Origin: Bacteroidetes bacterium QS_9_68_14 | Lineage (GTDB): Bacteria > Bacteroidota > Rhodothermia > Rhodothermales > Salinibacteraceae | Direction of reading: 5' to 3' | Length of the DNA stretch: 38,227 nucleotides | Assembly (NCBI GenBank): GCA_003022535.1 | Contig: PXTT01000059.1 | Location: forward strand, 1 to 38,227 | Shown here: one piece after another, positions 5,527 through 28,300 of the stretch | Layout of the letters: each line of letters opens with the position of its first letter | Position numbering within the stretch: position 1 is the stretch's first letter | Program-made: the position numbers and the translations under genes | The notes under the pieces: model-generated | What the model saw: only the letters and a program-made list of their open reading frames with translations | Database searches by the model: none | What the model was told of the DNA's origin: nothing

Positions 5527-5548
5527 GTGGCCTGACTTTTGTGGCCAC
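5527..5548. terminator. weak hairpin after the PorG-like gene
   Basis: GTGGCC and GGCCAC form a 6-bp stem with a 10-base loop, followed by TCCTTTTG. It may partly terminate transcription between the barrel gene and gldK. Confidence 0.3.
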
Positions 5549-5625
5549 TCCTTTTGCAACCGAAGCGGGTCGCTTCACCTGATTCGGGTAAATCAATCAT
5601 CGCCATTACACTCTTCTCTTCCATT

Positions 5626-7335
5626 ATGTGGACTAAGCGCTTCAGCGCAATCGCCGCTCTGCTGCTCCTATGGGGACTCGCGGGGCCGACCGCCTCACGG
5701 GCCGCGCACGCCCAAGAACTCTTCGCCGCCGGGGGAGCTGTCCTCACCGACGCTCCTGCCTCCAGCAACCTCGACGGGACGCGTCCGGCGGGACAGCTCG
5801 GGGCGCGCCTGCCTTACACCGACTTGTTTACCCTTCAGGGAGCGGTCGCCTACCAGGATCTGGTGTCGCTCGAAGGCACGCTCCAATTCCACCCCTTCGA
5901 GCGAATAGAGGCCTTTGGGAGCGAGCGAGGAGTCAAGCCTTACGCCTTCGGAGGGGTCGGCTACTACGTGGCCGGCGCCGACCAGGGCGAGCGCTCGGTC
6001 GTGCCGCTCGGGGTAGGGGTGGAAGTGCCGGTCCGCTCAGACGTGGGGCTGAACGTAGAGGTCGGGGGGCGCTGGACGGTCGCCACCAACGAGCCGCCCA
6101 GGAGCCTCGACCTCACGTCTGGCCTCGCCCCGAGCATCGGCGTCACGTACCGCTTCGGAACGGACAAGGACGAAGGAGACAGGCGGCCACGCCCCCCGCT
6201 CGCGGAAACGTCCTCGTCGGAAGATCCTGCGTCGGGCGAGGAGCCTGCATCGGGCGAGGAGCCTGCGTCGAGTGGGGAGACGCCTTCGGAGGAAGCGCCC
6301 TCGTCGGGGGCAGAGGCCGGCGGCGCCCCCGATAGCGGCAACGCCCCGGCCGAAGAAGCACCCACGGGAGGCGGCGTTGCTGAGGGGGATCCCGTGGCCG
6401 ACGAGAGTGACACGGGCACTCCGCGTCCTCGCGACCCGGTGGCGAAAACCGCACCCATGCCCGAAGCGACCCGCCAGCGCTCAGGAGGGGCCGCGCGGCG
6501 CCCGCCTGCGCCCGACGGCACAGCCGAGGCCGACACGACCGAGGACGGAGAGCCGCAAGATGAGATGCGCCGCGTGCCAGCCGGCACCTTCGTAATGGGC
6601 TTGACCGACGAGGACCCTCTCGAACTCCAGCAAGCTGGGCGCAAGCGCGTTTCCGTCACGCCCTTCAGCGTCGACAAGTTCGAGGTGTCCAACGCCGAGT
6701 ACCGCGCTTTCCTCAACGAGCTTCCCCCGGAGGAGCGCCAGGAAATGACGCCCGACTCTACCGTCTGGGGCGAAGCGCGCAGCCGCTCGACTTGGGAGGA
6801 GTACTTCCGCAACTCCGAGTTTAACGATCACCCGGTCGTCGCGGTGACGCACCAGCAGGCCCAGCGCTACTGTGAGTTCAACGGCAAGCGCTTGCCGACG
6901 GAGGCGGAGTGGGAATACGCGGCGCGCGGCGACTTGGTTGGCAGCATCTACCCGTGGCGCGGCTACGAGCCCCGCAACAACCAGGGGCGCTACCTGGCCA
7001 ACTACAACCCCGGCCGTGGCGGATACGCGGCTGACGGCTATGCCTTCACCGCGCCCGGCGACGCCTACCCGCCGACCTCCTGGGGCCTCTACAACATGAG
7101 CGGCAACGTGGCCGAGTGGGTGCAAGACAAGTACCACCCCTCTTACTCGGAGCTTTCCGACTTCAATCCCGTCTACGAAGACCCCGAGGAAGACCGCTAC
7201 GTCGTGCGCGGAGGGTCGTGGGCCTCCAACGCCTTCTATATCGGCGTTGGGGTGCGCGACACCCAGCCGGGGAGCGAAGCCTCGCCCTACATCGGCTTTC
7301 GCTGCGCCACCAGTTCGGAAGAGCCGTCGAACTGA
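5626..7335 (+). CDS. gldK: GldK/PorK-like T9SS protein: beta-barrel fused to a SUMF1 domain
   Basis: 569 residues: signal peptide (1-29, ending AAHA), an OmpA-like membrane beta-barrel (about 32-178), a low-complexity E/P/S/G linker (179-312), and a SUMF1/formylglycine-generating-enzyme fold (about 313-561). SUMF1 landmarks are MRRVPAGTFVMG, FEVSNAEYRAFL, GKRLPTEAEWEYAARG, NMSGNVAEWVQD and VVRGGSW...GFRC. The catalytic cysteines of true FGE after RGGS are absent (here RGGSWASNAFYIG), so the domain is structural, as in GldK/GldJ. In the T9SS, GldK (PorK) is an outer-membrane lipoprotein forming a periplasmic ring with GldN. Here no lipobox exists and a barrel replaces the lipid anchor. The call rests on the SUMF1 domain plus gldL-M-N following. 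ATG 5626 chosen for the signal peptide; the frame is open to a GTG at 5539. Confidence 0.78.
   Translation: MWTKRFSAIAALLLLWGLAGPTASRAAHAQELFAAGGAVLTDAPASSNLDGTRPAGQLGARLPYTDLFTLQGAVAYQDLVSLEGTLQFHPFERIEAFGSERGVKPYAFGGVGYYVAGADQGERSVVPLGVGVEVPVRSDVGLNVEVGGRWTVATNEPPRSLDLTSGLAPSIGVTYRFGTDKDEGDRRPRPPLAETSSSEDPASGEEPASGEEPASSGETPSEEAPSSGAEAGGAPDSGNAPAEEAPTGGGVAEGDPVADESDTGTPRPRDPVAKTAPMPEATRQRSGGAARRPPAPDGTAEADTTEDGEPQDEMRRVPAGTFVMGLTDEDPLELQQAGRKRVSVTPFSVDKFEVSNAEYRAFLNELPPEERQEMTPDSTVWGEARSRSTWEEYFRNSEFNDHPVVAVTHQQAQRYCEFNGKRLPTEAEWEYAARGDLVGSIYPWRGYEPRNNQGRYLANYNPGRGGYAADGYAFTAPGDAYPPTSWGLYNMSGNVAEWVQDKYHPSYSELSDFNPVYEDPEEDRYVVRGGSWASNAFYIGVGVRDTQPGSEASPYIGFRCATSSEEPSN
6223..6276. repeat. 18-bp tandem repeat in the gldK linker, three copies
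   Basis: Three head-to-tail 18-bp units (starts 6223, 6241, 6259; consensus GAGCCTGCGTCGGGCGAG) encode EPASGE-type hexapeptides in the disordered linker between barrel and SUMF1 domain. Such tracts can change length by slippage. Confidence 0.75.
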
Positions 7336-7346
7336 TGCCCTGAACC

Positions 7347-7385
7347 GGAAGGCGCGCTGCGCTCGCGCGTCCTTCCTCTTTTTTC
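7347..7385 (+). terminator. rho-independent terminator between gldK and gldL
   Basis: GGAAGGCGCGC pairs with GCGCGTCCTTCC (11 bp, one bulged T) around a 7-base loop, followed by TCTTTTTTCTT. It begins 11 bases after the gldK stop and ends 22 bases before the gldL ATG. It is the most canonical terminator in the left half of the window, yet lies inside an apparent operon, so it probably lowers gldLMN expression relative to gldK unless a promoter lies within the gap. Confidence 0.75.
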
Positions 7386-7407
7386 TTCGTTGAGTCTCCC
7401 TGGTCCT

Positions 7408-8472
7408 ATGGCCGACGCGAACTCGTCTTCTTCCTCCTCCTGGCTCGACTCCGTGCAGCCGTTTCTGGAGTTTCTCATCGGCATTTTCGGGGCGCTAGCC
7501 ATCATCGGGGTCTTCTTCAAAATTCAGGGCTACCCGAACACCGAGATCTTCATGGTGCTCGGATTCATGGGAGAGGCGGCAGCCTTCGTCGTCATGGGCT
7601 CCTTCGCGTTGCTGATGCACTTCATGGGCAGGGACCAGGCGGGAAGCGAAGGCGAGGCGACCGCCGAGGTCGTGACCGTCGAGCAGCAACAACAGGCGCC
7701 GGTGCAGGAAATGCGCGCCTCCTTCCGCGAGATGATGGAAGAGCGCCTCCGCGAAGACCTCGACGGGGCCATGGAGGCGCTGGCGCAGGAGACCCACCGC
7801 TTCGAGCAGGAGATGCGGCAAATGGCTGGCGAGATGGAGCAGACGCGCTCGGCGCTCGGCCGGGTGCAGGAGGCCCTCGGCCCTGCCGCCGATGGGCGCT
7901 TGACCGAACAGGCCCGCGTGCTGGGGAACCGCATGGAGCAGATCAACGCGCAGCTTCGCCAGAGCGGGAAAAAGATCGAGGGCGCGTACGCGGCACTGGA
8001 GCAGATGGAAGACGGCCTTAGCCGCGCCGCCGCCGGCACGCTCCCCGAGGACGCCGAGCACTTGGAGGAAGGCATGAAGGCGCTGGGGGCCGAGGTGCAG
8101 GCGATGAGCAGCGAGATGGGCCCAGCGCGCACAGCGGTCAAGCAGATGCGCTCCGAGCTCGAGCAAGTCACCAGCGGCCGGTTGGCCGAAAATGCCGAGC
8201 TGCTGGGCGAAGGCATGGGCCACCTCGGCGAGGAGATGGATGGAGCCAGCCAGGCGGTCGAAAGCCTGCGCGCGGACCTCGACGAGATGGCCGGTCGCTT
8301 CCAGCGCTTCAACCGCGCCCCGGGCGGTCCGGGCAGTAGTGCCGCGGACGGCAACGCCTCGGCCAGCAATGGCACAGACCGCACCGCCTCGGGCGCGGGA
8401 GGCGATTACACCTCGGACACCCACCCGCAGAATGCGCGCCCCGCGCCCCACGAGGACACGCGCGGCGGGTGA
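7408..8472 (+). CDS. gldL: GldL/PorL-like T9SS inner-membrane motor subunit with extended coiled-coil tail
   Basis: 354 residues. Two membrane helices (about 23-41 and 48-71) carry the GldL signature: IIGVFFKI with K38 in helix 1 and GFMGEAAAF with E56 in helix 2. These match the lysine/glutamate pair of known GldL (K27 and E49 in Flavobacterium) thought to conduct protons. GldL forms a pentamer around a GldM dimer and drives secretion and gliding. The cytoplasmic tail (about 100-303) is almost wholly helical and made of four 47-residue repeats, followed by a disordered end (304-354). Usual GldL proteins are about 200-270 residues. ATG 7408 is preferred to an in-frame TTG at 7390. The gldK terminator lies just upstream; gldM follows after 63 bp. 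Confidence 0.82.
   Translation: MADANSSSSSSWLDSVQPFLEFLIGIFGALAIIGVFFKIQGYPNTEIFMVLGFMGEAAAFVVMGSFALLMHFMGRDQAGSEGEATAEVVTVEQQQQAPVQEMRASFREMMEERLREDLDGAMEALAQETHRFEQEMRQMAGEMEQTRSALGRVQEALGPAADGRLTEQARVLGNRMEQINAQLRQSGKKIEGAYAALEQMEDGLSRAAAGTLPEDAEHLEEGMKALGAEVQAMSSEMGPARTAVKQMRSELEQVTSGRLAENAELLGEGMGHLGEEMDGASQAVESLRADLDEMAGRFQRFNRAPGGPGSSAADGNASASNGTDRTASGAGGDYTSDTHPQNARPAPHEDTRGG
7753..8316 (+). repeat. four 47-codon coiled-coil repeats in gldL
   Basis: Residues 116-162, 163-209, 210-256 and 257-303 align with exactly 47-residue spacing. The last three begin GRLTEQARVL, GTLPEDAEHL and GRLAENAELL; the first is more diverged. Each contains heptad-like stretches and a mid-repeat G-x-M or similar turn. 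Confidence 0.7.
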
Positions 8473-8535
8473 GCGCGTGGCTCCTTCCACCCGCTTTCGC
8501 CTCTCCAGAAATACAGACTCCTCCGAAGACGGGCC

Positions 8536-9564
8536 ATGACCTCGCGCCTCAAGGATATGCGGTACTCCGTCATGCTGGCGTTGTACCTGCCGATCCTGCT
8601 CTACGCCTTTAGCACCTACGACCTCAGCGACGACACCTATGCCGTGCAATCAGTCGAGCCGGTGGTGGTGGGGGACCGCACAGTCGTGCTCGGGCAGCCA
8701 TTCACGGCGCGGACGTTCCTGAGCGTGGGGCAGAGCGAAGGGCAACGTCTGCAGACGCAGGGCGGTGGCGTGCAAGCGGTGGGCGACTCGCTCCTGCGCA
8801 TGAGCACGGGCGGCCTTCTGTCTGAGGAGGAAGACCAGAAAACTGTATCCTACAGTGGACAGTTTCGCTTTCGGCAGGTAGACGGGCAGATGGCGCAGCT
8901 CCCGGTGCAGGGGCGTTTTCAGGTGCGGCGGCCCGAGATCGTGGCCACCAGCGAGGCTACGCAGTCGCTGTACCGCCGGTGCCTCAACCGCATTCGCATC
9001 GACGTGCCGGGGCTGGAGGGGCGCCCGTTGCGCCTCGAATACGGGTCGCAGAGCACGGCCGGGCGCACTATCGCGCTCAGCCCGAGCCAGAGCAGCTCCA
9101 GCACCGTGCGCGTCTTCCTGGCCGACTCGGCCTCGGCGGGCACCGAAAACGTCTTTCTGGGCGAGAAAGAGTTTGCCGTGATCGACCCGCCGCGGCCCGA
9201 GCTGAAGGTACGCAGCGGGGGGCGCGAGGTGGCCAGCGGAGACAACATTCCGCGCCGTCGCGCCGTCCTGAACTTCGAGGTGGAGCCCGACCAAGAGTTT
9301 CGCCAACGCTACCCGCAGGACGCCCAGTACAGCGTAGGGCGCGCGACCGTCTTCCTGCGAAGAGGGCTGACGGCCAGCGAAAGAATCGGTACCTTCGACC
9401 TCGACGGGGGGCGCCTCGTTCTTACACGCAACCTCAGTGACGCCGAGGCTGGCGATCGCATTACGGTCCGCCTCGAAGGGGTCGTGCGCATCAACCACGC
9501 CGGGCAGGCCATCCCCGTTTCCTTCAGTGAGGCGAGCCGCACGTTTGGCTTCGTGCTTTCGTAG
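8536..9564 (+). CDS. gldM: GldM/PorM-like T9SS motor shaft protein lacking the D1 domain
   Basis: 342 residues: a single N-terminal membrane helix (about 11-27), then a periplasmic region of beta-sandwich domains. VVLGQPFTARTFLSV (50-64) matches the D2 opening; RPEIVATSEATQSLYRRCLN followed by RIRIDVPGL (about 132-160) matches the highly conserved GldM segment before D3; and GDRITVRLEGVVRIN (307-320) matches the C-terminal domain. GldM dimers span the periplasm and transmit motion from GldL to the GldK/N ring. Known GldM/PorM have about 510-520 residues with a helical D1 domain of some 180 residues after the membrane helix; here D2 begins almost directly after it. Lies between gldL and gldN, same strand. 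Confidence 0.82.
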   Translation: MTSRLKDMRYSVMLALYLPILLYAFSTYDLSDDTYAVQSVEPVVVGDRTVVLGQPFTARTFLSVGQSEGQRLQTQGGGVQAVGDSLLRMSTGGLLSEEEDQKTVSYSGQFRFRQVDGQMAQLPVQGRFQVRRPEIVATSEATQSLYRRCLNRIRIDVPGLEGRPLRLEYGSQSTAGRTIALSPSQSSSSTVRVFLADSASAGTENVFLGEKEFAVIDPPRPELKVRSGGREVASGDNIPRRRAVLNFEVEPDQEFRQRYPQDAQYSVGRATVFLRRGLTASERIGTFDLDGGRLVLTRNLSDAEAGDRITVRLEGVVRINHAGQAIPVSFSEASRTFGFVLS

Positions 9565-9728
9565 GCCCGCCGGCCCGGGTTCGCGCTGCCGAGCGCGTTA
9601 GTTTCGAGCGCGTGGCCGCGCGTGTCTCGCGCACTGCCGAACTGGCGCGCTAATTGCGAGGTTTTGGATGCGCGGGTGAGGGCGCCCTGTTCCGCTTCGG
9701 TTTTTCGACACCAACTTTCCGCTTTTCG

Positions 9729-10382
9729 ATGCCTTCTCTTACTCGATCCCGTTTGCGCGCGACCTCTGCCGGACTGGTGGCGCTGCTGGTCGCCACGATC
9801 ATTCCGCTGGGCGGGCCGCAAGCAGCGCACGCGCAGACGGAATGGAAGCAGACCTTTCAAGTCATCACGCCCGTTCAGGAGAACAGTGCTGCCAGCGCTC
9901 TGCGCGACTCTGTCGTAGATGTAGCCACGCGCGAGGGAATCTCGCTGCGCCGCTCGCCCGATGATGAGTCGGCGCGCCCGATTTCGCAGATCGAGGAGGA
10001 GCTGCTCGAGCAGGGGCTCGATTTCACCAGCGCCAACCGCCTGTTCATTCGTTACGACTTCCAGGCCGAGCGCGGCCAGCTTCAGCGCAGCATCGAGAGT
10101 CTGCACTTTATCTACCGGCCCGAAGGAGCGGACGGGCAAGACCTCTCCATCATGAACGTGGACGTATCGGAGGCGCCGGCTATCGCCAACTTGCTGGAAA
10201 ACAGCGGCATGACGCTGCGCACCAATGAAGCGAGTTTCAGCCCGTTTCGCGAGCAGCTCATGTTCCACAAGCTGCCGTCCAGTCAGCTCGTGGCGCTGGG
10301 GGGCGACGTGATCCGCGACACCGAGGAGGCCGAGTCGGAGCGCCGGCGCCTGCTGCGGGCCGTGCAGCGCTTCCTGTACTGA
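9729..10382 (+). CDS. gldN: GldN/PorN-like T9SS ring protein (divergent)
   Basis: 217 residues with a clear signal peptide (cleavage after QAAHA, residue 35 or so). The mature part has the GldN-type core: IESLHFIYRPEGADGQDL corresponds to the I-x-x-I-x-x-Y-x-P strand, and ASFSPFREQLMFHKLPSSQL to the conserved S-x-x-D-A-x-x-L-R-x-F-S segment near the GldN C terminus. GldN (PorN) is a soluble periplasmic partner of GldK in the outer-membrane ring and contacts GldM. Sequence is diverged and shorter than most GldN (about 300), so the call leans on position after gldM. ATG 9729 is chosen because the signal peptide starts there; the 164-bp gap before it may contain its own promoter. It converges on exbD. 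Confidence 0.65.
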   Translation: MPSLTRSRLRATSAGLVALLVATIIPLGGPQAAHAQTEWKQTFQVITPVQENSAASALRDSVVDVATREGISLRRSPDDESARPISQIEEELLEQGLDFTSANRLFIRYDFQAERGQLQRSIESLHFIYRPEGADGQDLSIMNVDVSEAPAIANLLENSGMTLRTNEASFSPFREQLMFHKLPSSQLVALGGDVIRDTEEAESERRRLLRAVQRFLY

Positions 10383-10401: not shown

Positions 10402-10923
10402 CTACTGGGGCGTTGCTGACGCGTCCGCCTCGGGGCGCGTGGCCATGACCACGCGCATCCGCAGCGCCTGAGCGGCGGTTGCCACGGCGGCAAACTGCCG
10501 AACGGTCGCCTGCTCATCGGCGCGCAGGAGCAGGCCGTCGGTGCCCTTTTCGTTCTTCTGGGTGCGCAGGGCCGTCGTCAGGTCTTCGCCTGCCACCTCG
10601 CGCTGGCCGACGAAGAACGCGCCCTCACCAGTGATGGCGACGGGCACGAAAGCCTCCTCGGCCGGGCTGGAAGCACCGGCCTGCGGAAGGTCCACCTGAA
10701 TACCCATGCGCGGGACGAAGTTCGACGTGAGCAGGAAGAAAATCAGCAGCAAGAGCACCACGTCGGCCACGCCGGCGAGGCTGAAGGTCATCAGCGGCTT
10801 GCGCTCCGTCGAGAAGTCGAGCACGATTCGTGGAAGCTGGGTGCCGTAGTATTTGGGTGCTGGGTAGGCGCGCCCCCGGCGCGGTGAAAACGCCCCTCTT
10901 TCTCCTGCCCCCCGTACGCTCAC
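10402..10923 (-). CDS. exbD: ExbD/TolR-family biopolymer transport protein
   Basis: A single-pass inner-membrane protein with a periplasmic domain; the partner of ExbB in a proton-driven stator that powers TonB- or Tol-type outer-membrane work. The signature KPLMTFSLAGVADVVLLLLIFF carries the essential membrane aspartate (D54 counting from the GTG at 10923), followed by LTSNFVPRMGIQVDLPQA. That GTG overlaps the exbB stop (GTGA), suggesting translational coupling and giving 173 residues with a basic 33-residue cytoplasmic N-terminus. An inner GTG at 10824 would give a more usual 140 residues. Last gene of a minus-strand operon, convergent with gldN. Confidence 0.9.
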   Translation of the reverse strand: MSVRGAGERGAFSPRRGRAYPAPKYYGTQLPRIVLDFSTERKPLMTFSLAGVADVVLLLLIFFLLTSNFVPRMGIQVDLPQAGASSPAEEAFVPVAITGEGAFFVGQREVAGEDLTTALRTQKNEKGTDGLLLRADEQATVRQFAAVATAAQALRMRVVMATRPEADASATPQ

Positions 10924-11714
10924 CCCGTACGGGCCGGCTCGCGCTCACGCGGCGCGCTGCTGGGCGCGTCGGCGGGGTCCGCATGGCGGGAAGGGGCGTC
11001 GCCGGGCGCGACGGGTTCCTGGAGGAGGTCGATAAAGGCGGTGGCCGAGCGCTCCATATCGTTGGTGAGGCGCTTGATGCGCCCGAGCAGGTAGTTGTAC
11101 GCCAGGTTGGCGAAGATGCCCACCGCCAGCCCGGCGGCCGTCGTCACGAGCGCCTCCCAGATGCCGCCGGCCAGCACGCTCGGGTCGGCGTTGCCCTGCA
11201 AGGTCTGCACCTGGCGGAACGCCTCGATCATGCCCAGGACCGTTCCGAAGAAGCCCAGAAGCGGGGCCACGCCGGCGATAGAGGCCAGGAGGCCAGTACG
11301 TTTCTCCAGGGCGAAGGCTTCGTGCTTGCCAGCCGCCTGCACGGCGTCTTGGATCTCGGAGATGGGCCGCCCCAGCCGCTCGAGCCCTTGTCGCAGGATG
11401 CGCGCGATGGGCGTGTCTTCCTCGCGGCAAAACTGAAGCGCCTCCTTGATGCGCCCGGCGCGCACGTCCCGGCGGATGCGCTCGGTCGCCGCCTCGGGGT
11501 CGCCCTCGGCGCGGCGCACGGCCACGAGGCGCTCCACGAACAGATACAGCGCGGCCCCCGAGAGCAAGAGCAACGGCACCATCACCCAGCCGCCCTGCAG
11601 CAGAATGTCGAGCAGGGACGTCGGCTCGTCTCCGGGAGGCGGGGCTGCCGCGTCGTCGGGGGCCGCTTGAAAAAGAACAGCCTGGACGAAAACGCCCTGG
11701 AAAGGAAAAGGCAT
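10920..11714 (-). CDS. exbB: ExbB/TolQ/MotA-family proton channel subunit
   Basis: 264 residues, three membrane helices (about 42-60, 140-165 and 185-205). The family core is plain: GLLASIAGVAPLLGFFGTVLGMIEAF and WEALVTTAAGLAVGIFANLAYN, with the usual threonine and alanine/glycine-rich channel-facing helices. It forms the pentamer around ExbD in the inner membrane and supplies energy to a TonB or Tol-like partner. A short N-terminal hydrophobic stretch before helix 1 may be a leader. The C-terminus (about 235-264) is a charged, proline-rich tail. Overlaps exbD by 4 bases; preceded by the HU-SPOR gene, 60 bp away. No TonB gene is in the operon, so the partner is elsewhere or is the HU-SPOR protein or TPR protein. 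Confidence 0.92.
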   Translation of the reverse strand: MPFPFQGVFVQAVLFQAAPDDAAAPPPGDEPTSLLDILLQGGWVMVPLLLLSGAALYLFVERLVAVRRAEGDPEAATERIRRDVRAGRIKEALQFCREEDTPIARILRQGLERLGRPISEIQDAVQAAGKHEAFALEKRTGLLASIAGVAPLLGFFGTVLGMIEAFRQVQTLQGNADPSVLAGGIWEALVTTAAGLAVGIFANLAYNYLLGRIKRLTNDMERSATAFIDLLQEPVAPGDAPSRHADPADAPSSAPREREPARTG

Positions 11715-11774
11715 GAAGGCGCGCTTGGGAAAAAAACGGGAAGAGCTGCGCGGCCGCGGGGAGACGGGGAGCGC

Positions 11775-13133
11775 TCAGGAGTCAGGCTCGACTTGCAGGG
11801 CCCAGGCGCCCTGTGGGAACGGTCCGCCGTCTTGCTGAAGGGGCTGGGCGGCGGCCTCGCGGGACGAGAACTGTCCGACGACGACGCGGTAGCGGGGCGT
11901 GCCGTCCACGGTCGCTTCCAGAATGTCAATCGGGTAGTCCTGATCCTGGAACTGCTGGGCGAACTGCTGAGCGGCGCGGCGGGCCGTGTCGCGTGAGGTC
12001 TCGGAAGCGACGACGACGGTCCACCCGCCCTCGGCTCGGTCGAGGCGGCCGGCCCGTACCTCCGTGGCGGAGTCTGCGGGAGACGGGGAGCCCGCGGTGT
12101 CGGCGGCGGCCGAATCGGCGGCGGCTGCGGCGCCGGAGCGGTTTCCAGAGGCGCCGGGGCTCGCTCCGGGAGGGGCGTTGCCGCTCCCGCCCCCCTGCTG
12201 GAGTACGGCGACTGGGCCGGGCACCACGCCCTGCTGCCCGAGGACGAACCACCCGCCCAGTCCTACGACCAGAAGCACTGCCAGTGCCGCCAGCCATCCG
12301 CCCGTCCCCGATCCGCCGTCCGAGGAGGTCGCCCGGCGCTCGGACTCGGGAAGACGCGTGCGGTCGGTAGGAGGCTCCGGCGCTTTGGGCGGGCGTTCCT
12401 CGTGGGGCCGGCCTTCTGCGCGGTGGCCCGGGGCATCCTCGGTCCGGGGCGCGGCAGCGTCTTCCGTTTCCAGACGCCCGGCCCGCACGTCCCCAGGCGA
12501 GGGGGCGACCGTGCGGCGACGCACGAGCGATGCCCCCGCCGGCAACGCCGCGTAGTTCCAGGCCGCCGCACCGCCGGACGCTCCGGCGGACGGACCGGGA
12601 AACGCCCAGTCGCTCTTCGCCCGGTCTTCGCGTTGCTTTTCTGCGGGAGGGAAAGAAGCCGCCTCGGGAGACGGCTCCGCCGAGGGGGCTACGTCGCCGG
12701 GGATGTCGCTGGATTCTCTGGGAGAGGGTCCACGGGAAGAAGAGTCGTCGAGGGACAGGCCCGCGAAGAGAGCTTCTTCCTCTGCGGGAGCGTCTTCGCC
12801 AGACGATTCTTCCTGGGCCGAAGCCGTTTCCTCGTGCGGAGCCGCCTCTTCAGGAGTGGAGGAGGCCGCAGCGGCACCGCCGGCATCGGGGGCGGGGACG
12901 CTGATGGCATCGAGGCCTTCGAACGAGCGGTTGACCGAGCGCGCCAGGGCCTCGTCGGGCTCGAAGGCCCAGGCGCCTTCCGCGCGGGAGAAGGTGCCGA
13001 GCCCCGGCAAGGAGGCTTCGCCGTTGCGCTCGATCCGCGAGCGAAGTGCGGCAAGCAGGGTTTGCAGCTGCTGGCGTGCCCGGGCGGGCGAGGTGTCGAG
13101 GCGGCGGGCGAGCTGTTCGATCACGGAAGACAT
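11775..13133 (-). CDS. HU-like N-domain / transmembrane / SPOR protein
   Basis: 452 residues in four parts. Residues 1-70 are an HU/IHF-like domain of the type found in Bacteroidota SPOR proteins (IEQLARRLDTSPARARQQLQ, LPGLGTFSRAEGAWAFEPD), here lacking the basic DNA-binding arm. Residues 75-278 are acidic, disordered low complexity. A single membrane helix lies at about 280-299 (WLAALAVLLVVGLGGWFVLG). The periplasmic end holds a SPOR domain (about 371-449; WTVVVASETSRDTARRAAQQ, YRVVVGQFSSREAA), which binds denuded peptidoglycan strands at division sites. This suggests a cell-envelope or septal protein with a cytoplasmic HU-like interaction domain. It lies in an operon between a stand-alone HU-like gene and exbB. 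Confidence 0.82.
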   Translation of the reverse strand: MSSVIEQLARRLDTSPARARQQLQTLLAALRSRIERNGEASLPGLGTFSRAEGAWAFEPDEALARSVNRSFEGLDAISVPAPDAGGAAAASSTPEEAAPHEETASAQEESSGEDAPAEEEALFAGLSLDDSSSRGPSPRESSDIPGDVAPSAEPSPEAASFPPAEKQREDRAKSDWAFPGPSAGASGGAAAWNYAALPAGASLVRRRTVAPSPGDVRAGRLETEDAAAPRTEDAPGHRAEGRPHEERPPKAPEPPTDRTRLPESERRATSSDGGSGTGGWLAALAVLLVVGLGGWFVLGQQGVVPGPVAVLQQGGGSGNAPPGASPGASGNRSGAAAAADSAAADTAGSPSPADSATEVRAGRLDRAEGGWTVVVASETSRDTARRAAQQFAQQFQDQDYPIDILEATVDGTPRYRVVVGQFSSREAAAQPLQQDGGPFPQGAWALQVEPDS

Positions 13134-13196
13134 GGCGCGGGGGCGGCCGTTGTTGCGGGCGGAAAGCGCCGGGCGAGGCGAACGACTCCTGGCAGG

Positions 13197-13448
13197 CTAC
13201 TCCCGAGCGGGTTCGAAGACGACCTCGTCACAGGGGGGAGACAGGGAGTGCTCTCCGTCCGCCGGCTCCTCCACCTGGCTGGCCCGGTGCTCGACGCGAA
13301 AGGTGCCCAAGCCGGGCACGTCGGTCGGCTCGCCATGCTCGAGGGCCTCGCGTACGCACTGCGAGAGCGCCCTGGCCACGCTGGGCAGACCGGGCATGTC
13401 GTTCGCGTCGGAGGCACCGGGGTCAGAGGAGGCGGGAGAGCGTTTCAT
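13197..13448 (-). CDS. short HU-like domain protein
   Basis: 83 residues, too short and too hidden among long spurious frames to be obvious. The core SVARALSQCVREALEHGEP followed by VPGLGTFRVEHRA and PPCDEVVFEPARE matches the HU/IHF fold scaffold (helices, G-x-G-T-F turn, final I-x-F-x-P strand). It has no signal peptide and lacks the long basic beta-arm of true HU, so DNA binding is doubtful. It is the same kind of domain as the N-terminus of the adjacent HU-SPOR protein, 63 bp downstream, which makes heterodimerisation with it a reasonable guess. Start ATG 13448; the frame is open further upstream into the barrel gene but the composition there is shadow-like. Confidence 0.65.
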   Translation of the reverse strand: MKRSPASSDPGASDANDMPGLPSVARALSQCVREALEHGEPTDVPGLGTFRVEHRASQVEEPADGEHSLSPPCDEVVFEPARE

Positions 13449-13539
13449 GAGGAGAGGCGCGCGCGGGAAGCAGAAGCAGAGGCAGAGTGAGCTTTTGCAA
13501 AAATATAGGCCCTTGGGCGGCTCTGCGCAAACGGGGGGC

Positions 13540-15267
13540 TCACAGATGCAGGCGCAGCCCGCTCTGGACGACGAGCGGCGGGCGCGGGTAGCGGTCGAAG
13601 CGCTCCAGTGCGCCGGCGGAAATGTTTTCCAGCCGCGCCACCACGCTGATGGTCGGGGTGAGCGCGTAGCGGCCTTCCACGTCGAGGTCGGCAAAAGCAC
13701 CGACTTCGCCGTCCCTGCCGCGCGCAAGCGGGCGGGGGCTCTCGAAGGTGCCGGTGAGGCGGACGTGCCCGTCTCCGCCGAGGAAGGCGTAGCTGGCCGA
13801 CGCCTCTACCGTGAGGGGCGAGAAGTACGGGATCTCCGCGTCGCTGCTGGCGAGCGTCCCGCGGCGGTAGGCCGCCGAGAGGGACGCGCTCAGCTGCTCG
13901 CCTCGGCGCACCGAGAGCGCGCCGCCCGCCCGAATGATGCGTGCCTCGCCGTAGCGCGCCGCCGTGACGCCGCGCTCGTAGCGGCGCGCGCGCTCGTCTT
14001 CGTAAAACAGGAAGCTCGGGGCGCGCCGGTAGCCGGCGAAGGCGCGCAGCTCCAGCGCGCGCTCAGTGAAGAAGCGCAGCCCGCCCTCGGCATCGAGGGT
14101 GAAGACGTTCGGCTGGGGAGCCGCTTCGTAGAGAAGCGACGGGTTCTCGCGGTAGCGGGCGGCCAGCCGGTTAGCCGCGGCGTGCGGATTGGTGCGCGCG
14201 TAGAGGGCCACACGCGGGGTGGCCTGCCACGTCAGGCGCACGTCGGGAGCGAAAAAGAGGCCGCTGTCCCCTCCGCTCGAGAAGGTAAGCGCGCGCGCGC
14301 CAGCGAAGACGCGGAGCCCTTCGCTGCGCCGGAGCTGCACTCCCGCTCCGGCATCCAGAAACGAGGCGTTGCTGCTGGAGGGACGGTCCGCAAACGAGCC
14401 GGAAAAACGCGCGGCCGAGCCCCGCGCGCTCGCCTCCAAGCGCACGTCGCCCACCGGCCCGCCGCCGCTGAGGGAACCACCCGCGCGTCGCTCGCGGCGC
14501 TCGAAGCGGGCCCCTTCGCCCGTGGACGCATCGGTCGTCACCTGAGCGGCCTTCGCGTGGGCGCGAGCTTCCAGCGTAGCCCCCGTGCCGCCGCCGGCCT
14601 GCACATGCAGTTGCGCGCTGCCGCCGTAGCGGTCGCGGTTGGGCTGCGCGGCGAGGTCGCGGCCCCCGGCCCCGACGGCCCCGTAGAGCGGGTGCTGGGC
14701 GAAGAAGCCGTCGGCGGTGAGGGCGGCGGTGAAGGCCGAACGCTCGGTGCGCAGCGTGGCCGCGCCGCGCAGCTCGTCGGCAGGCGTTTCGACGTTTTTC
14801 GCGTCGAAGGGGGCAAAGCCGTCGGTGCCGATGTAGTTGAGGCGCGGGCGCAGCGTCCACTGCGAGGCGAGCGGCTGGTCGAAGCGCACCCGCGCGAAGC
14901 GGCTCAGGTAGCGCCCGGCCCCGGCTTCCAGCAGCCCGGCGCGCGGCGGCGGAAGCGCGGCAAAGCCGGAAGACGCCTCTGCCTCGCCGGGGAGCGTGCG
15001 GGGGGCCGCGCCGGCCGGCTCGGGCAGGGACGCCGGCTCGGGCAGCGGCGCCGACGGCAGCGGCTGGAGGGGAGAGGAAGGCAGCAGGCCCGACACGGCG
15101 GGCCGCTGAAGCGCGGGCAGCGAGATGTCGAGCTCGCCACGGATTTCGACCTCGCGCGGGGCAATTTCGGGCAGGGCCGGGTCGGCGTTGCCGGTCGTGT
15201 CCTGCTGCGCCTGGGCCGGAACAGCCGCGAGGAGCGCGGTCAGCAACGCGCAGGAGAGGAGTCGCAT
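13540..15267 (-). CDS. outer-membrane beta-barrel protein, TonB-receptor-like without plug
   Basis: 575 residues. A signal peptide (MRLLSCALLTALLAAVPAQAQ) is followed by PREVEIRGELDISLPALQR, a short motif I associate with the N terminus of this Bacteroidota barrel group, and a proline-rich linker (to about 110). From about 115 to the end (GLRLHL) the sequence alternates hydrophobic and polar residues in many amphipathic strands, with R/Y-rich turns, as in TonB-dependent receptor barrels of about 16-22 strands. No plug domain or TonB box is recognisable. It sits between the giant TPR protein gene and the HU/SPOR/ExbBD genes, so it is a candidate outer-membrane client of that stator. Cargo unknown. 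Confidence 0.72.
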   Translation of the reverse strand: MRLLSCALLTALLAAVPAQAQQDTTGNADPALPEIAPREVEIRGELDISLPALQRPAVSGLLPSSPLQPLPSAPLPEPASLPEPAGAAPRTLPGEAEASSGFAALPPPRAGLLEAGAGRYLSRFARVRFDQPLASQWTLRPRLNYIGTDGFAPFDAKNVETPADELRGAATLRTERSAFTAALTADGFFAQHPLYGAVGAGGRDLAAQPNRDRYGGSAQLHVQAGGGTGATLEARAHAKAAQVTTDASTGEGARFERRERRAGGSLSGGGPVGDVRLEASARGSAARFSGSFADRPSSSNASFLDAGAGVQLRRSEGLRVFAGARALTFSSGGDSGLFFAPDVRLTWQATPRVALYARTNPHAAANRLAARYRENPSLLYEAAPQPNVFTLDAEGGLRFFTERALELRAFAGYRRAPSFLFYEDERARRYERGVTAARYGEARIIRAGGALSVRRGEQLSASLSAAYRRGTLASSDAEIPYFSPLTVEASASYAFLGGDGHVRLTGTFESPRPLARGRDGEVGAFADLDVEGRYALTPTISVVARLENISAGALERFDRYPRPPLVVQSGLRLHL

Positions 15268-15333
15268 GTTCGGAGCGGGGAGTTGGGTCTTCGTGCTGAA
15301 GGGTAGTTCGGGCAGCGTTCACCCTTCCTTCTG

Positions 15334-18300
15334 TCAAAGCTGCTCCTGCTCCCGGCGGGCGGTGCGGGCCTCTTCGGTCCCGGCGAATTCGTCCTGGAGG
15401 CGATCGTAGGTCCGCCGAGCTTGGGCGGGGCGACCGGCTGCGCGGAAGGCGCGCGCCTGGATTAGCAGGCTGCGGGCGATCCAGTCGGGGAAGCCGGCGA
15501 AGAGGTCCGGCAGGCGACGGAGCTCCTCGATGGCGTCCTCGGGCCGGTCCTGCTCCAGGAGCAACGCGCCGAGGCGGTAGAGGGCCTCGGCCCCGGCGGC
15601 GCCCCGGCTTTCCTCGGCCACACGGCGGTAGAGCGCCTGCGCCTCCCCAGGGCGGCCGGTGCTCTCGTAGAGGCCGGCGCGGGCCACGCGGGCTTCCTGC
15701 GCGACGGGCGCGCCGGAAGGAGCCCGCTCGGTGGCTTCGCGGAAGCGCGCCTCCGCATTGGCGGGGCGATCCAGCGCGGCGAGGGCGCGGCCCTGCCCGT
15801 ATTGGGCGCGGGCTTGCACGCGCCCGTCATCATCCGCGGGGGCACGCTCCTGCATCTGCTCGTAGGCATCGAGGGCCCGCTGAGGCGCGTCCTGCTGCAA
15901 GTAGAGCGCGCCGAGGCGCCCGGCAGCATCGGTGCGGCGGTCGGAGTCGGGATACTCGCGGAGCACCTGGCGCAGGTAGCCTTCGGCCTCGCGGTACTCG
16001 CCCTTCTCGGCGTAGATCGTGCCGAGGTAGTAGTACGCCTGCGGTAGCAGATCTCCGCGCGTGGAGGTGCGCACGAATTCCTGGAACGCCTGGCGCGCGG
16101 CGTCGGTCTGGCCGCGCTGGTATTGCGTCTCGGCCCGGCGAAAGCGCACCTCGGCGGCGGCATCGGCGCCGAGCTCATCGAGGGTGTCGTCGCTGCCACC
16201 GTCGCCGCCCGTGGCGAGGGCCACGCCGCGTGCCGCGTCGGAGGCGAAGGCGCTCTCGGGGTAGTCCTCCAGCACGGCCCGATAGGCGCGCGCGGCGGCC
16301 TCCCGGCGCCCTGCGTTGTAGAGCGCGTCGCCGATGCTGTACTGCGCCTTCGCCGCCAGGGCGCCGCTCGCGTTGCTGCTTTCCAGCAGGGCCCGCCAGG
16401 CGCGCACGGCTGCGTCGTAGCGCTCGGCCTGGAAGCGCGCCTGCCCAATCTGGAAACGCGCCTCTTCGCGCAGTTCGCTTTCGGGGAAGTCATTCACGAG
16501 GCGCTGCCACGCGGCGATGGCGCCCTCGGCGTCGTCCGTGCGGGTGCGTGCCTGGCCGGTCTGGTAGAGGGCATAATCGCGGGCGTCGCGAGTCCCCTCG
16601 CGGCTGGCGCGGGCATAGGCGCGCTCCGCCTCGGCGAAGCGGCGGCGGGCGTAGTAGCTGTCGCCGAGGCGCAGGAGCGCGTCGCTGCGGTAGGTGCCCT
16701 CCTCCGCCCCGGGCGTCGCCAGAAAGCGCTCGAAGCGGCGCGCGGCGCGGTCGTAGTTTTCCTGCTGGAAGGCAGCCCAGGCGAGGCCGTACCGCGCGGC
16801 CTCAGCGTAGCTGCCCTCGGGGTACTCGCGCAGGTAGCGCTGGTAGCCACGCGCGGCCTCTGCGAAAGCGCCGGTGCGGTAGCGGGCCTCGGCCGCGCGG
16901 TAGAGCGCTTCGGCTACGCGCTCGCCCTCGGGGGCCTGGCGCCGGTAAGCTGCGAAGGCGTCGGCGGCCTCGGCGGGGCGCCCGGCGCGGAGGAGAAGCT
17001 GCCCCTGCTCGAAGCGCGCCTGCGCTGCCAGCTCCGCGGGTAGGCCGGCGGCGAGCGCCTCATCCAGGGCCGCGAGCGCGTCGGCGTCTCGCCCGCCGGC
17101 TTGCTGGAGCGCGCGGCTGCGCACGTAGCGCGCCGCGGCGCGTTGCTCGAAGCCGTCGGGCGCCTCCGCGGTCACGCGACCCAGGACGCGCGCGGCCTCA
17201 GCGGGGCGGCCGGCGGCCAACAGCGCGCGGCCCCGGCGGTACTGCGCGTCGGGGCGGCGCGGGCTCTCGGGAAAGCGCTCGGCGAAAGCGGCAAACCCCT
17301 CGGCGGCGGCCCCGGGCTCGCCCGCCTCCGCGCGGCTGACGGCGGCAAGGTAGGCCGCTCGCTCGCGCACGTCAGCATCGGTGCCTGTCGCATGGCCGGA
17401 ATCAGGGGCCGCCTCGGCTACGCGGGCGAAGAGGGCGGCGGCGCGCGGGTAGTCCGCCTGGCGGTAGCGCAGGAGGGCCATCCCGTAGCGGGCAGCCCGC
17501 GCGTCAGGGCTTTCGGAGAAGCGCTCCAGGTAGCGCTGGTAGGCCGCGGCGGCCTCCGAGCGGCGCCCGCCCTGCCGGCGCAGCGCCTCGGCGCGGAGGA
17601 AGGACGCCCGCGCGCGCTCGCTTCGCGCCTCCAGTGTGCCGCGTTGCTGGTCGAGCTCGCGCAACACGTCCCCGTGACGCCCGAGGTCGAAGTAGACCTC
17701 TGCCAGCGCCAGCCCGAGACTGCTGGCCTGTGGGGCCGCGGGATAGCGCTGCGCAAGGCGTTCGAGCGCGTCGGCCGCCTCGGCCGTGCGCCCCTGCTGA
17801 AGGTGCACCGAGGCGACCTGGTAGAGCGCGCGCGGGGCCGCCGCGGCGTCCGGGTACTGCTGGCTGACAGTGCGAGACTGCTCCAGCGCGTCGGCGGGCC
17901 GGCCCTGCCGCTGCGCCAGCCGCCCCAGCAGGAAGCGCGCCTCCGCGGCGCGCTCGGGGCCCGCGTCTTCGAGCACGCGGCGAAGCGTGCGGCGGGCTCT
18001 TTCATTTGCCTCTTGCTCGAAAAAGTAGCGCCCCAGCCGAAGCTGGGCCCGCTCGGCCAGCGGATGCATCGGGTACGCCGCCTGGAGTTGCTCCAGACGC
18101 CGCATGGCGGCCGCGCTGTTTTCCAGCGCCAGCGACGCGCGCGCTTCGTAGAAGAGCGCCTCGGGCGCGCGGGCATGATGGGGGAAAGCGTCCCGAAAGT
18201 CGGCGAAGGCTTCCTGCGCGGCGCCGTAGAGGCGTTCTCGGTAGAGCGAAAGCGCGTCGGCGAACGCTTCGCTGGCCTCGCTGGAACCGGCGGAAGTGGA

Positions 18301-18438
18301 CTGCGCCCGCCCCTCGGCCTTCGGCCACGCCAGCAGGAGCGCGCCGCCCAGTAGCAGCACCGGCAAAAGCGCAGCGACCCTGCCTCGCGTGCGCCTGCCC
18401 CGCGTGCGGGGGAAAGGGGGCGGGCAGAAAGCAGCCAT
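15334..18438 (-). CDS. giant periplasmic tetratricopeptide-repeat protein
   Basis: 1034 residues: a basic N terminus with signal peptide (hydrophobic VAALLPVLLLGGALLLAW, cleavage near GRAQS), then TPR-type helical pairs to the end. Repeats have the YbgF/BamD-like form with an Asp/Glu-Tyr-Pro helix end (for example VLEDYPESAFASDAARG, VLREYPDSDRRTDAAGR). I estimate roughly 25 units of about 34-40 residues. Such proteins act as scaffolds in envelope assemblies; YbgF/CpoB is tied to Tol-Pal, which fits ExbB/ExbD at the end of this operon. SprE/PorW of the T9SS is also a large TPR protein, but is a lipoprotein; no lipobox is present here. ATG 18438 is chosen for the signal peptide; the frame is open to 18636. 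First gene of the operon. Confidence 0.8.
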   Translation of the reverse strand: MAAFCPPPFPRTRGRRTRGRVAALLPVLLLGGALLLAWPKAEGRAQSTSAGSSEASEAFADALSLYRERLYGAAQEAFADFRDAFPHHARAPEALFYEARASLALENSAAAMRRLEQLQAAYPMHPLAERAQLRLGRYFFEQEANERARRTLRRVLEDAGPERAAEARFLLGRLAQRQGRPADALEQSRTVSQQYPDAAAAPRALYQVASVHLQQGRTAEAADALERLAQRYPAAPQASSLGLALAEVYFDLGRHGDVLRELDQQRGTLEARSERARASFLRAEALRRQGGRRSEAAAAYQRYLERFSESPDARAARYGMALLRYRQADYPRAAALFARVAEAAPDSGHATGTDADVRERAAYLAAVSRAEAGEPGAAAEGFAAFAERFPESPRRPDAQYRRGRALLAAGRPAEAARVLGRVTAEAPDGFEQRAAARYVRSRALQQAGGRDADALAALDEALAAGLPAELAAQARFEQGQLLLRAGRPAEAADAFAAYRRQAPEGERVAEALYRAAEARYRTGAFAEAARGYQRYLREYPEGSYAEAARYGLAWAAFQQENYDRAARRFERFLATPGAEEGTYRSDALLRLGDSYYARRRFAEAERAYARASREGTRDARDYALYQTGQARTRTDDAEGAIAAWQRLVNDFPESELREEARFQIGQARFQAERYDAAVRAWRALLESSNASGALAAKAQYSIGDALYNAGRREAAARAYRAVLEDYPESAFASDAARGVALATGGDGGSDDTLDELGADAAAEVRFRRAETQYQRGQTDAARQAFQEFVRTSTRGDLLPQAYYYLGTIYAEKGEYREAEGYLRQVLREYPDSDRRTDAAGRLGALYLQQDAPQRALDAYEQMQERAPADDDGRVQARAQYGQGRALAALDRPANAEARFREATERAPSGAPVAQEARVARAGLYESTGRPGEAQALYRRVAEESRGAAGAEALYRLGALLLEQDRPEDAIEELRRLPDLFAGFPDWIARSLLIQARAFRAAGRPAQARRTYDRLQDEFAGTEEARTARREQEQL

Positions 18439-18757
18439 GACCGAGAGGAAGAAGCAGGGCGAGGAGGCCGGTGGCACATGGGCTTCGAAAGAAAAGAACA
18501 GGCCTCGACAGGGTAAGTGAAACGAGCGAAAACTTCGAGCCGCGAAGCGAGCGAATGGTTCTGCAGGCGGCGCGGCAAACAAAAGGAGCCGCGCGCGAGG
18601 CGAGCCTTCCGAACGAACGTAAACGTCATTTCTCACAGAACCATTACACCGGATGAGGGTTTACGCGAATCCTCCTGCGGCCCGGCACTCTTTGCAAGGT
18701 CCGCCGCATGGCAACACGTTCAGCGTCTTGCCTTCTTCCCTTTCTCATCCTGCTCCT
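18439..18757. other. 319-bp divergent promoter region
   Basis: Lies between the TPR-barrel-HU-SPOR-ExbBD operon (minus) and the DUF883-like pair (plus). No gene seen. It must carry promoters in both directions, but I could not place -33/-7 elements with confidence. Confidence 0.55.
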
Positions 18758-25376: not shown

Positions 25377-28300
25377 GTGCGCCTGCCCCGTCGCACGTTC
25401 CCGTTGCCGCTTCCCAAGCGCCCGTCTGCTCTGGTGGGCGGGACGCTGCTGGTCGTGGGGCTGCTGGCCGCCACGCTGGCCGCGCCGGCGGTCCGCGCGC
25501 AGGTCACGCCCCCGTCAGACACCGCCGCCACGGCCCCGCGCACCCTCGCCGGCGGCGCCCTCCGCACCGACCCGACGCTCCACGCGGACACGCTCAACAT
25601 CTTTAAAACGCAGCCTTTCGAGCTTTGGCCCTTCATCCTGCCGGGCTCCGAGACGGTCGTCGTGGATGGAGCGCGGCTGGACACCGCGCAGTACCGCCTT
25701 GACGCGCGCGCCGGGCATCTCTGGCTTCGCGTCGAGCCGCCGAGTGGCGACTCGTGGCTGGCGGTGACGTATCGCACCCTGCCGTTTGAAGGCCTGCGCG
25801 GCACCTACCGCCTGCGCGGCGTGGCCGACACGTCCGCCGAGGGGGCCGCAACGGTGCGCGAGAAGCCCCGCGAGGAAGACGGGGAGGCGCCTGCGTTCGA
25901 TCCCTTCGAAGGGGTGAGCCTGGAGCGCAGCGGGTCGGTCTCGCGTGGCGTGATCGCGGGGTCGAACCGCGACGCGACCGTCGAGTCGGGCCTGCGGATG
26001 CAGATCGCCGGCGACGTGAGCGAGGACGTGAGCGTGCAGGCGGTTCTCACCGACGAGAACACGCCCATCCAGCCGGAGGGCACCACGCAGCGCCTCGACG
26101 ACTTCGACCGCGTCTTCATGGAGTTGGCCGCCCCGCAGGGCACCGCCCGCCTCGGCGACGTGGACCTCGAGCTCGGGCAGGAGACCACCTTCGCGCGCTT
26201 TCGCCGCAAGGTCCAGGGCGCCGCTGCGCAGGCCGCCTCGCCCGCGTCGCTGGGGGGGCGCGCCCTGGGCAAGGGCCACGCCACCGTCGCCGGGGCCGTC
26301 TCGCGCGGGCAGTACCGCCTCCAGCAGATTGAGCCGACCGACGGCGTGCAGGGGCCGTACCGGCTGCGCGGCTCCGGGGGCAAAGACGCCATCGTCGTCA
26401 TCGCCGGCTCGGAACAAGTCTACCTCGACGGCGAGCGCCTGCAGCGCGGCGCCTCGGCCGACTACACCATCGACTATGCGCAGGCGGAGATCACCTTCAC
26501 GCCTGAGCGCCTCATCACCGAGGACCGGCGCATCCGCGTGGAGTTCGAGTACCGCACCTCCAGCTACTCGCGCACGCTCGTGGCCGGGCAGGGCGAGGCC
26601 GGCTTCTGGCGGCGCTCCGAAGGGGCAGCAGGCGAGCGCGCCGGCGAGCCGCGCGTGACCGTCGGCGCCACGTTCGTCCGCGAGGCTGACGGGACCTCGC
26701 TGGGGGAGGGCCGCTTCGACCTGACCGCGCAGGACTCGACGCGCCTCGCGGAGGCCGGCGACGACGACGTGACCGGCAGCGGGGCCACGCGCGTGCCCTT
26801 CGAGCCAGAGGCGCCGTACATCCCCTACGAGCGCGTGGCCGCCCCCGACGGCGGCGATGGGGCGGACTCGGTGTTCGTGGCGCTCGAAGAGGCCCCGCCC
26901 CGGGGGACGCCGGTGTGGCGCGTGCGTTTCACCCGTGTGGGCAGCGGGCAGGGCCGCTACACGCGCGAGGGGCGGCAGGCCGGCGGCATCGTCTACGAAT
27001 ACCGCGGCGAAGGGCAGGGCGCGTACGCCCCGGTTCGCCCGCTCCCGCGTCCGCAGCAGCAACGCCTGCTCGACCTCCACGCGACCGCCGAGCCGGTGGA
27101 CGGGGTCGAGCTGTTCGGCGAATGGGCGCGCTCGACGAACGACCAGAATCGCCTTTCGAGCCTCGACGAGGGCAACGACCGCGGCGGCGCGTACCACACG
27201 GGCCTCCGCCTGAAGCCGCTCGCGCTCCGGCTGGGGGGCATGGAACTCGGCCGGCTGAGCGGGGAGGCCGAGCGGCGCTTTCGCGGGCAGCACTTCACCG
27301 CGTTCGTGCGCACGCGGCCCGTCGAGTTTGGGCGGAAGTGGAACTTGCCCTCCGAGCGGGTCGGCTTCGGGGCCGGCGGCGTGCGCGGGGCCGGCAACGA
27401 AACGGTAGACGAAGCGCGCCTGCGCCTGGGGTTTTCGGAGGAGTCGGAAGTGGAGGCGGAGCTGGGCCGCCTGACGTTGGGGGACGCCTTCCGCGGGGTG
27501 CGCCGCGCCGGGCACGTGCGCCTCCGCGAAGCCGGCTGGCCGCGCCTGGACTACCGCGCGGCGCTCGTCACCAGCCGCGACGCGCTCGAAGGGGCCATTC
27601 TCGACGAGGACGGCCCGTCCCGCGACGACGATGACGAAAACGACGGCGACGAGAATGCAGGCGAAGCGATCGAGGGGCGCTGGCTGCGGCAACGCGGGGC
27701 GCTCTGGCAGCCGCTGCTGGGCGGGGACCTCGTGCCGCGCCTCGAAATCGAGCAAGAGCGCCGCCTGCAGCGCGTGGCCCCTGACGACCGCCTCACGGAG
27801 CGCTCCTTTTCGTTCGTAGAGGTGCGCCCGAACGTGACCTTTCGCCCCAGCGAGGCGTTGCGCGCCGGGGCCGAGGTCGAGATTCGCACCGAAGACGAGA
27901 CGCTCGACGGCCGGCTCGAAGACGCCTCGACGGCGTGGACCGTGCAGACGAATGCGGCCTACGACCCCTCCTCCGACGTGCTCGACGTGGAGGGCCGCGT
28001 CGGCTACCGGCGGCGGCGCGTGGAGGAGGGCTTCCGCAACCGAGGCGGAAAGCAGGGCACGTCCGCGCTCCTCGCGCAGGTGGAGGGGCGCTGGCAGCCG
28101 CTGGGGCGCGCGGCAGAGGTGCGCGGCCTCTACCGCGCGCAGACGAAGCGCACACCGCTCCTGGAGGAGACTTACGTCCAGATTGGCCCCGAGCGCGGGC
28201 AGTACGTCTGGGAAGACGCGGACGACGACGGCCTCGTCCAGAACGACGAGCTGCTGCCGGAGCGCACGCCCAACGAGGGCACCTACGTGCAGCGCTACGT

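Follow-up and report, generated by a model that had tools for sequence, protein, structure and literature searches.

A six-gene operon is described here from Bacteroidetes bacterium QS_9_68_14 (class Rhodothermia, order Rhodothermales), a metagenome-assembled genome (MAG) that is 56% complete and lies in 76 contigs. The whole stretch analysed, positions 1 to 38,227 of contig PXTT01000059.1, is called the window, and the operon occupies its minus strand at 10402-18438. The genes encode, in order, a large tetratricopeptide repeat (TPR) protein, an outer-membrane barrel protein (BAR), a small HU-like protein (HUs), a protein with HU and SPOR domains (HU-SPOR), ExbB and ExbD. Sequence comparison brought out the gene set and its order, the missing plug of the barrel, the motif in the barrel's tail, the motor residues, a cognate TonB and the joint absence of these components from one family. 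We propose that a dedicated ExbBD-TonB motor works on the plug-less barrel, with the TPR protein as a scaffold and the SPOR protein at the septum. Coupling of the motor to the barrel is well supported at the sequence level, and that a TonB motor acts on a plug-less barrel is, in our estimate, clearly better than an even bet. The proposal as a whole has about an even chance of being right, and a function as counterpart of the Tol-Pal system, with the division role that we infer for it, rather less than that.

Conservation of the gene order and of the motor

Gene order was scored with profiles built from operon members. In the class sample of 117 genomes, 88 were matched by a search with the barrel protein, and 57 class loci were scored: 40 operon regions, 16 genomes outside family f7 that the barrel search had missed, and the window. 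Other ExbB loci (L089-L092) were excluded from the operon counts. The order BAR, one or two HU/SPOR genes, ExbB, ExbD was found in 52 of the 57 loci, the window included, and the remaining five (L033, L042, L053, L056 and L086) run into contig ends. Forty named loci, nearly all from Rhodothermales or related Bacteroidetes MAGs, made up a second set that partly overlaps the first and gave the full TPR-BAR-HU-SPOR-ExbB-ExbD row in 27 and cut versions in 13. Loci cut by a contig or locus end were counted as incomplete in both sets, and no operon locus was dropped. The operon order is conserved far beyond chance, and the 52 loci in order rule out chance co-orientation of the genes. In the window's order the TPR gene stands upstream of BAR in 27/28 loci, and in family f14 it does so in both (L074 and L075); in the remaining class families it is situated away from the operon.

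Twenty loci from Bacteroidia, a non-random sample, were selected for their strong barrel matches. The TPR-BAR pair was present in all 20, with one gene between the two in L116; a SPOR gene came next in 14, ExbB-ExbD were present in 8, and a TonB was detected by profile in 8. These loci rule out that the operon is an oddity of close relatives alone. Conservation of gene order across Rhodothermota was one of the checks proposed in an earlier reading made from the letters of the window (the sequence-only reading); the order is kept well beyond close relatives.

Residues of the motor were counted by column on alignments of ExbB and ExbD in which the window's sequence is counted twice. The membrane aspartate is kept in 90/90 ExbD rows, the threonine of ExbB transmembrane segment 2 in 91/91 and that of segment 3 in 90/91; the window's ExbB keeps both channel threonines and its ExbD keeps the membrane aspartate. 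Against NCBIfam the window's ExbB scored 99.6 bits as TolQ vs 58.3 bits as ExbB, nearer to TolQ but below the tolQ equivalog cut-off of 221 and over no equivalog cut-off, and in the PDB its best match was TolQ (E = 7.8e-12), with ExbB at 4e-8. The window's ExbD aligned to ExbD of the PDB. The suggestion that a Tol/TonB-type proton-motor cassette is joined with SPOR and TPR proteins is borne out, and the arrangement is conserved beyond close relatives. A second motor set (L002) in the same genome consists of an ExbB, a small membrane protein and two ExbD-like genes.

The plug-less barrel, its tail and TonB

BAR has no Pfam match. A 35-member BAR profile, searched against the PDB, found TonB-dependent transporters, namely the pesticin receptor (E = 5.5e-8), OprC, FepA and BtuB. 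In an AlphaFold2 model, residues 109-575 form a barrel of about 22 strands with predicted local distance difference test (pLDDT) scores mostly above 90, while residues 16-108 score below 50 and have no structure. Foldseek and VIA-align 2 placed OprC, BtuB and FhuA at the top ranks for the model (Foldseek E about 1e-17), and the comparison with FhuA gave Z 21.8 and 3.4 Å over 450 residues. No N-terminal plug was found, either as a Pfam plug match or as a folded part before residue 109. Judged by profile and model, BAR is a TonB-dependent-transporter-type outer-membrane barrel without a plug. The earlier description, a plug-less barrel, holds as to the plug and can be refined to a transporter-type barrel with a TonB-box-like tail.

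The disordered N-terminal tail is the best conserved stretch of BAR, with 9 of the 15 invariant columns of alignment A5 falling within residues 32-55. Read by eye, the tail has LPEFVITG, LPDFVITG or LPEFIVTG in 7/20 Bacteroidia members, a segment that resembles the consensus of a TonB box. Rhodothermales tails mostly read LPDLAPREVEIRG or close. By sequence the BAR tail carries a TonB-box-like motif, a putative contact for TonB; if TonB binds such a tail on a plug-less barrel, the force would presumably be exerted on the barrel as a whole. Most of the class has one BAR match per genome. The phylum-wide BAR count of 271/296 is not used as an orthologue count, since its weak matches could come from ordinary transporter barrels.

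Outside the window's order, tonB lies directly behind exbD in 29/29 loci, and its products have a transmembrane segment, a proline-rich stretch and a TonB C-terminal domain; the tonB_Cterm model was over its cut-off in all four operon-type TonBs scanned. Inside the order, tonB adjoins exbD in 0/24 loci where the site is visible, and a full-length TonB is encoded unlinked, its element after the membrane helix reading like GFIEVEFG. With orthologues defined by E <= 1e-40 and almost end-to-end alignment, a strong TonB orthologue was present in 96/117 class genomes and in 58/58 outside the window's order. The unlinked orthologue was clear in 38/45 complete operon-keeping genomes of that order, and none was found in the window's own MAG, which is 56% complete. 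In Bacteroidia a TonB-like gene stands beside exbD in 8/8 loci with ExbB-ExbD, four by profile and four by eye only. Judged from these orthologues, the cognate TonB belongs to the system, as an operon gene outside the window's order and at an unlinked site within it, and the linked and unlinked genes together rule out that absence of TonB is a genuine property of the system. The sequence-only reading had stated that the operon contains no homologue of TonB, TolA or Pal; this is true of the six genes, but as regards TonB it fails for the system.

Since tonB follows exbD outside the window's order and the TPR gene is upstream in f14, that deep family holds the whole row TPR-BAR-HU-SPOR-ExbB-ExbD-TonB, which is likely the ancestral form. 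Three further observations concern TonB. Loci of families f3, f6 and f10 that have TPR and BAR genes and no strong orthologue of the operon-type TonB are L051, L055, L056 and L073. A TonB gene follows the SPOR gene, with no ExbB-ExbD, in four Bacteroidia loci (L119, L127, L129 and L134). The operon TonBs of L076-L082 have SIIMVLFSLW and similar segments with no transmembrane histidine.

Family f7, 13 genomes of the window's order that are 92-99% complete, has no TPR orthologue, operon-type ExbB, BAR or TonB orthologue in any of the 13. Its ExbBs are only as similar to the operon type as is the second motor system (32-33% identity), and the matches seen were weak: BAR in two genomes (E about 1e-7) and TonB in one (E = 1.5e-4 over 46 positions). 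HU-SPOR is kept in all 13; at the PfkB-adjacent site (12/13 fetched loci) HU-SPOR and sometimes separate HUs are found, and the other operon genes are gone. With tonB unlinked in the window's order, a single deletion does not account for the joint loss. The joint absence marks TPR, BAR, ExbBD and TonB as parts of one set. HU-SPOR remains where the motor is gone and so has some role of its own.

The other proteins, the operon layout and the neighbouring genes

Pfam TPR_6 was found in 15 stretches of the TPR protein, which by its N-terminal signal sequence, seen by eye, would be periplasmic. At E <= 1e-60 there is one TPR orthologue per genome in 104/117 class genomes. TIGR02795 scored 311.1 bits vs a cut-off of 90.1, but the score is spread over 11 repeat stretches, and the CpoB model NF008068 scored 142.3 bits vs a cut-off of 383. 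The CpoB-like role that the sequence-only reading had proposed for the TPR protein is putative, as is the septal site of the SPOR protein. An identity as PorW/SprE was rejected, NF052312 giving 129.6 bits against a cut-off of 250. In the PDB no specific relative of the TPR protein was found, only engineered TPR proteins at E <= 1e-30.

HUs matched Bac_DNA_binding with 23.7 bits (cut-off 22.4) and HU-CCDC81_bac_1 with E = 0.013. HU-SPOR has an N-terminal HU domain, a transmembrane helix at 279-300 and a SPOR domain at 370-448, the last with 37.7 bits vs a Pfam cut-off of 21 and, in the AlphaFold2 model, a beta-alpha-beta-beta-alpha-beta fold. HU-CCDC81_bac_2 remained below its cut-off in HU-SPOR (30.3 vs 35 bits). 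Domains 1 and 2 of HU-CCDC81 occur with SPOR in a single chain in the Bacteroidia locus L124, which the SPOR proteins of L128 and L130 resemble by eye. From these matches, HUs corresponds to domain 1 of HU-CCDC81 and the HU domain of HU-SPOR to domain 2. Proteins of Bacteroidota that combine HU-CCDC81 and SPOR share with HU-SPOR the joining of HU-CCDC81_bac_2 and SPOR; here, however, domain 1 has a gene to itself, and the two genes lie within a motor operon. Our literature searches turned up no paper joining HU-CCDC81, SPOR and a motor operon. By eye, the SPOR protein of L121 shows nothing HU-like at its N-terminus, and in Pfam the SPOR protein of L117 matches SPOR but no HU model, so that the constant element seems to be the membrane-anchored SPOR part, with the HU part as an accessory.

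The six genes are consecutive minus-strand open frames, as the sequence-only reading had described (Table 1). From TPR to ExbB the intergenic gaps are 66, 91, 63 and 60 bases in order. Among the six proteins, TPRs, Bac_DNA_binding (HUs), SPOR, MotA_ExbB and ExbD were over their Pfam cut-offs. An exbB/exbD overlap of 4 bases had also been reported; it stands as called and is uncertain, because relatives' ExbD frames are mostly 135-160 aa while that of the window, with a GTG start, has 173 aa, leaving the start unproven. A scan of the operon gave no promoter or terminator consensus above chance.

Table 1. Features of the operon in the window (aa, amino acids)
Feature	Position	Strand	Remarks
TPR protein	18438-15334	-	1034 aa; longer GTG start possible at 18636
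BAR (barrel)	15267-13540	-	575 aa
BAR tail DNA	15058..15177	-	residues ~31-70; TonB-box-like segment PREVEIRG and conserved LQRP element
HUs (small HU-like protein)	13448-13197	-	83 aa
HU-SPOR	13133-11775	-	452 aa
ExbB/TolQ-like motor protein	11714-10920	-	264 aa; MotA_ExbB E = 1.1e-32
ExbD/TolR-like motor protein	10923-10402	-	173 aa; ExbD E = 4e-20; start codon uncertain

Converging with exbD, on the plus strand at 5539-10382 of the window, is a type IX secretion module with a GldK-like gene, a probable GldL (two membrane segments by eye, weak matches), a GldM-like gene and a possible GldN that has no family match. The first periplasmic domain of the GldM-like protein seems to be missing, because its match covers only model positions 226-511 of 524. 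Farther on, at 25377-29171 of the plus strand, a 1264-aa frame has a SprA-like match over 57 residues (E = 5.4e-7; the model has a length of 2319) and, at its C-terminus, a weak match to a barrel; the 1298-aa frame overlapping it on the opposite strand had no match.

Function and competing explanations

In the proposal, ExbB and ExbD would be the inner-membrane proton motor of a dedicated envelope-spanning machine. The cognate TonB, encoded outside the operon in the window's order, would transmit force through the periplasm and take hold of the TonB-box-like segment in BAR's disordered N-terminal tail. With no plug left to move, the pull would fall on the barrel itself, i.e., on the outer membrane or on the barrel's contents or underside. 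At BAR the TPR protein would act as a scaffold in the periplasm, and the SPOR protein, anchored in the membrane, would tie the machine to denuded septal peptidoglycan. The likeliest job would be an energised link between the two membranes and the wall at division, making the machine a functional counterpart of Tol-Pal. In common with Tol-Pal it would have a TolQR/ExbBD-family motor, a transducer like TonB or TolA, a TPR protein and, through SPOR, a tie to septal peptidoglycan; it differs in having an outer-membrane barrel and a SPOR protein in place of TolB and Pal, and also in its HU domains. As a broader and more tentative idea, to which we give rather less than an even chance, outer-membrane constriction in Bacteroidota/Rhodothermota may be energised by TonB pulling on a plug-less transporter barrel as a force anchor, with SPOR marking the septum.

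In the available text of PMC12204202, Bacteroidetes are said to have no identifiable tol-pal loci, and undiscovered systems are suspected. Within our class sample, TolB_N (PF04052) was found only in 7/117 genomes, all of family f5 and in open frames of 656-1140 aa, with none in the window's family; Pal (TIGR02802) was over its cut-off in 0/117, the OmpA-type matches in 112/117 being below cut-off. The sequence-only reading had named two observations that would count against it, an order confined to close relatives and a classical TolA/Pal operon doing the same work elsewhere. Neither was found, because the order is conserved well beyond close relatives and neither TolB proper nor a Pal above cut-off turned up in the class. 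Our literature searches gave no paper on the operon gene set by title or start of abstract. In the available part of PMC12204202 the gene set is not described, and SPOR does not occur in its main text.

Several points weigh against the proposal. Seven genomes of f3, f6 and f10 keep the TPR and barrel locus and have no strong TonB orthologue, and the transmembrane histidine is missing in many Balneolales-type TonBs. Among the 20 selected Bacteroidia loci, ExbB-ExbD are not adjacent in 12 and no SPOR gene was found beside BAR in 6. The absence in f7 is one evolutionary event in one family, and HU-SPOR, surviving there without the motor, may lie outside the machine. A plug-less barrel of BAR's size would leak unless closed, and no closing part was found. 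Finally, the physical contacts, the direction of the force, the septal location and the role in division are all things that we infer.

Since ExbBD-TonB pairs usually drive uptake, the operon might instead be a dedicated TonB uptake or export system in which BAR forms a pore, the TPR protein or some other partner gates it in place of a plug, and SPOR only positions BAR. The motor, the TonB C-terminal domain, the transporter-type barrel and the TonB-box-like motif are indeed those of ExbB-ExbD-TonB with TonB-dependent transporters, from which BAR is descended with the motif retained. But the operon's barrel has no plug, the gene partners are TPR and SPOR proteins, the six-gene unit has no substrate gene, most of the class has the single BAR match noted above, and the same genome has a second ExbB-ExbD-ExbD system. 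We consider uptake or export rather unlikely. PorE, a CpoB-TolB-Pal fusion offered as a tether (Williams-Jones et al. 2025), could be the Tol-Pal substitute, leaving the operon to do something else. As far as the available text of PMC12204202 goes, PorE occurs throughout Bacteroidetes and Rhodothermaota, binds peptidoglycan and has no motor of its own. The operon in turn has no known Pal, so that the two are not exclusive, and it seems improbable that PorE displaces the operon from this role.

Still more doubtful is a gliding or secretion machine, whether transmitting force in the manner of Myxococcus Agl-Glt or as an accessory to the adjoining type IX secretion system (gldKLMN). The convergence of the GldK- and GldM-like genes and the probable GldL with exbD, and the PorW/SprE match of the TPR protein, would fit such a machine. 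However, the PorW/SprE score is below cut-off, TPR proteins score against many TPR models, and apart from the window L036 and L052 were the only ones among 40 loci scanned to have gldKLMN next to the operon, which rules out a lineage-wide link. Agl-Glt, in the available text of PMC3169522, has a TolQR-type motor, a TonB-domain transducer with a cytoplasmic domain (GltG), and TPR and small outer-membrane proteins; motor, TonB domain and TPR proteins are thus shared, but no SPOR, HU or transporter-type barrel is part of Agl-Glt as described there. An operon-type TonB gave an incidental weak match to GltG, 18.4 bits against a cut-off of 650. It is very unlikely, finally, that the HU-SPOR pair is the core, a chromosome-to-septum tether with which the motor genes are merely co-transcribed. 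The union of HU and SPOR domains in one protein and the persistence of HU-SPOR in f7 speak for a tether, and a role in chromosome partition was reportedly predicted in a 2017 paper for the CCDC81-type HU proteins of bacteroidetes. Yet in the model the arm strands of HU-SPOR (46-51 and 54-59) are joined by a two-residue turn, so that the DNA-binding arm is missing, and the HU-SPOR profile aligns to HU only up to residue ~61. Moreover, the SPOR proteins of L121 (by eye) and L117 (in Pfam) show no HU, and the BAR-SPOR-ExbBD order is too widely kept for incidental co-transcription.

In sum, the cassette is a candidate for the Tol-Pal substitute of Bacteroidota that is concrete, lies mostly at one locus and has partners that can be named; the motif of the BAR tail can be tested by point changes. 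If the proposed machine is real, TonB would be used for mechanical coupling instead of gating, and a transporter fold would have been turned into a force anchor.

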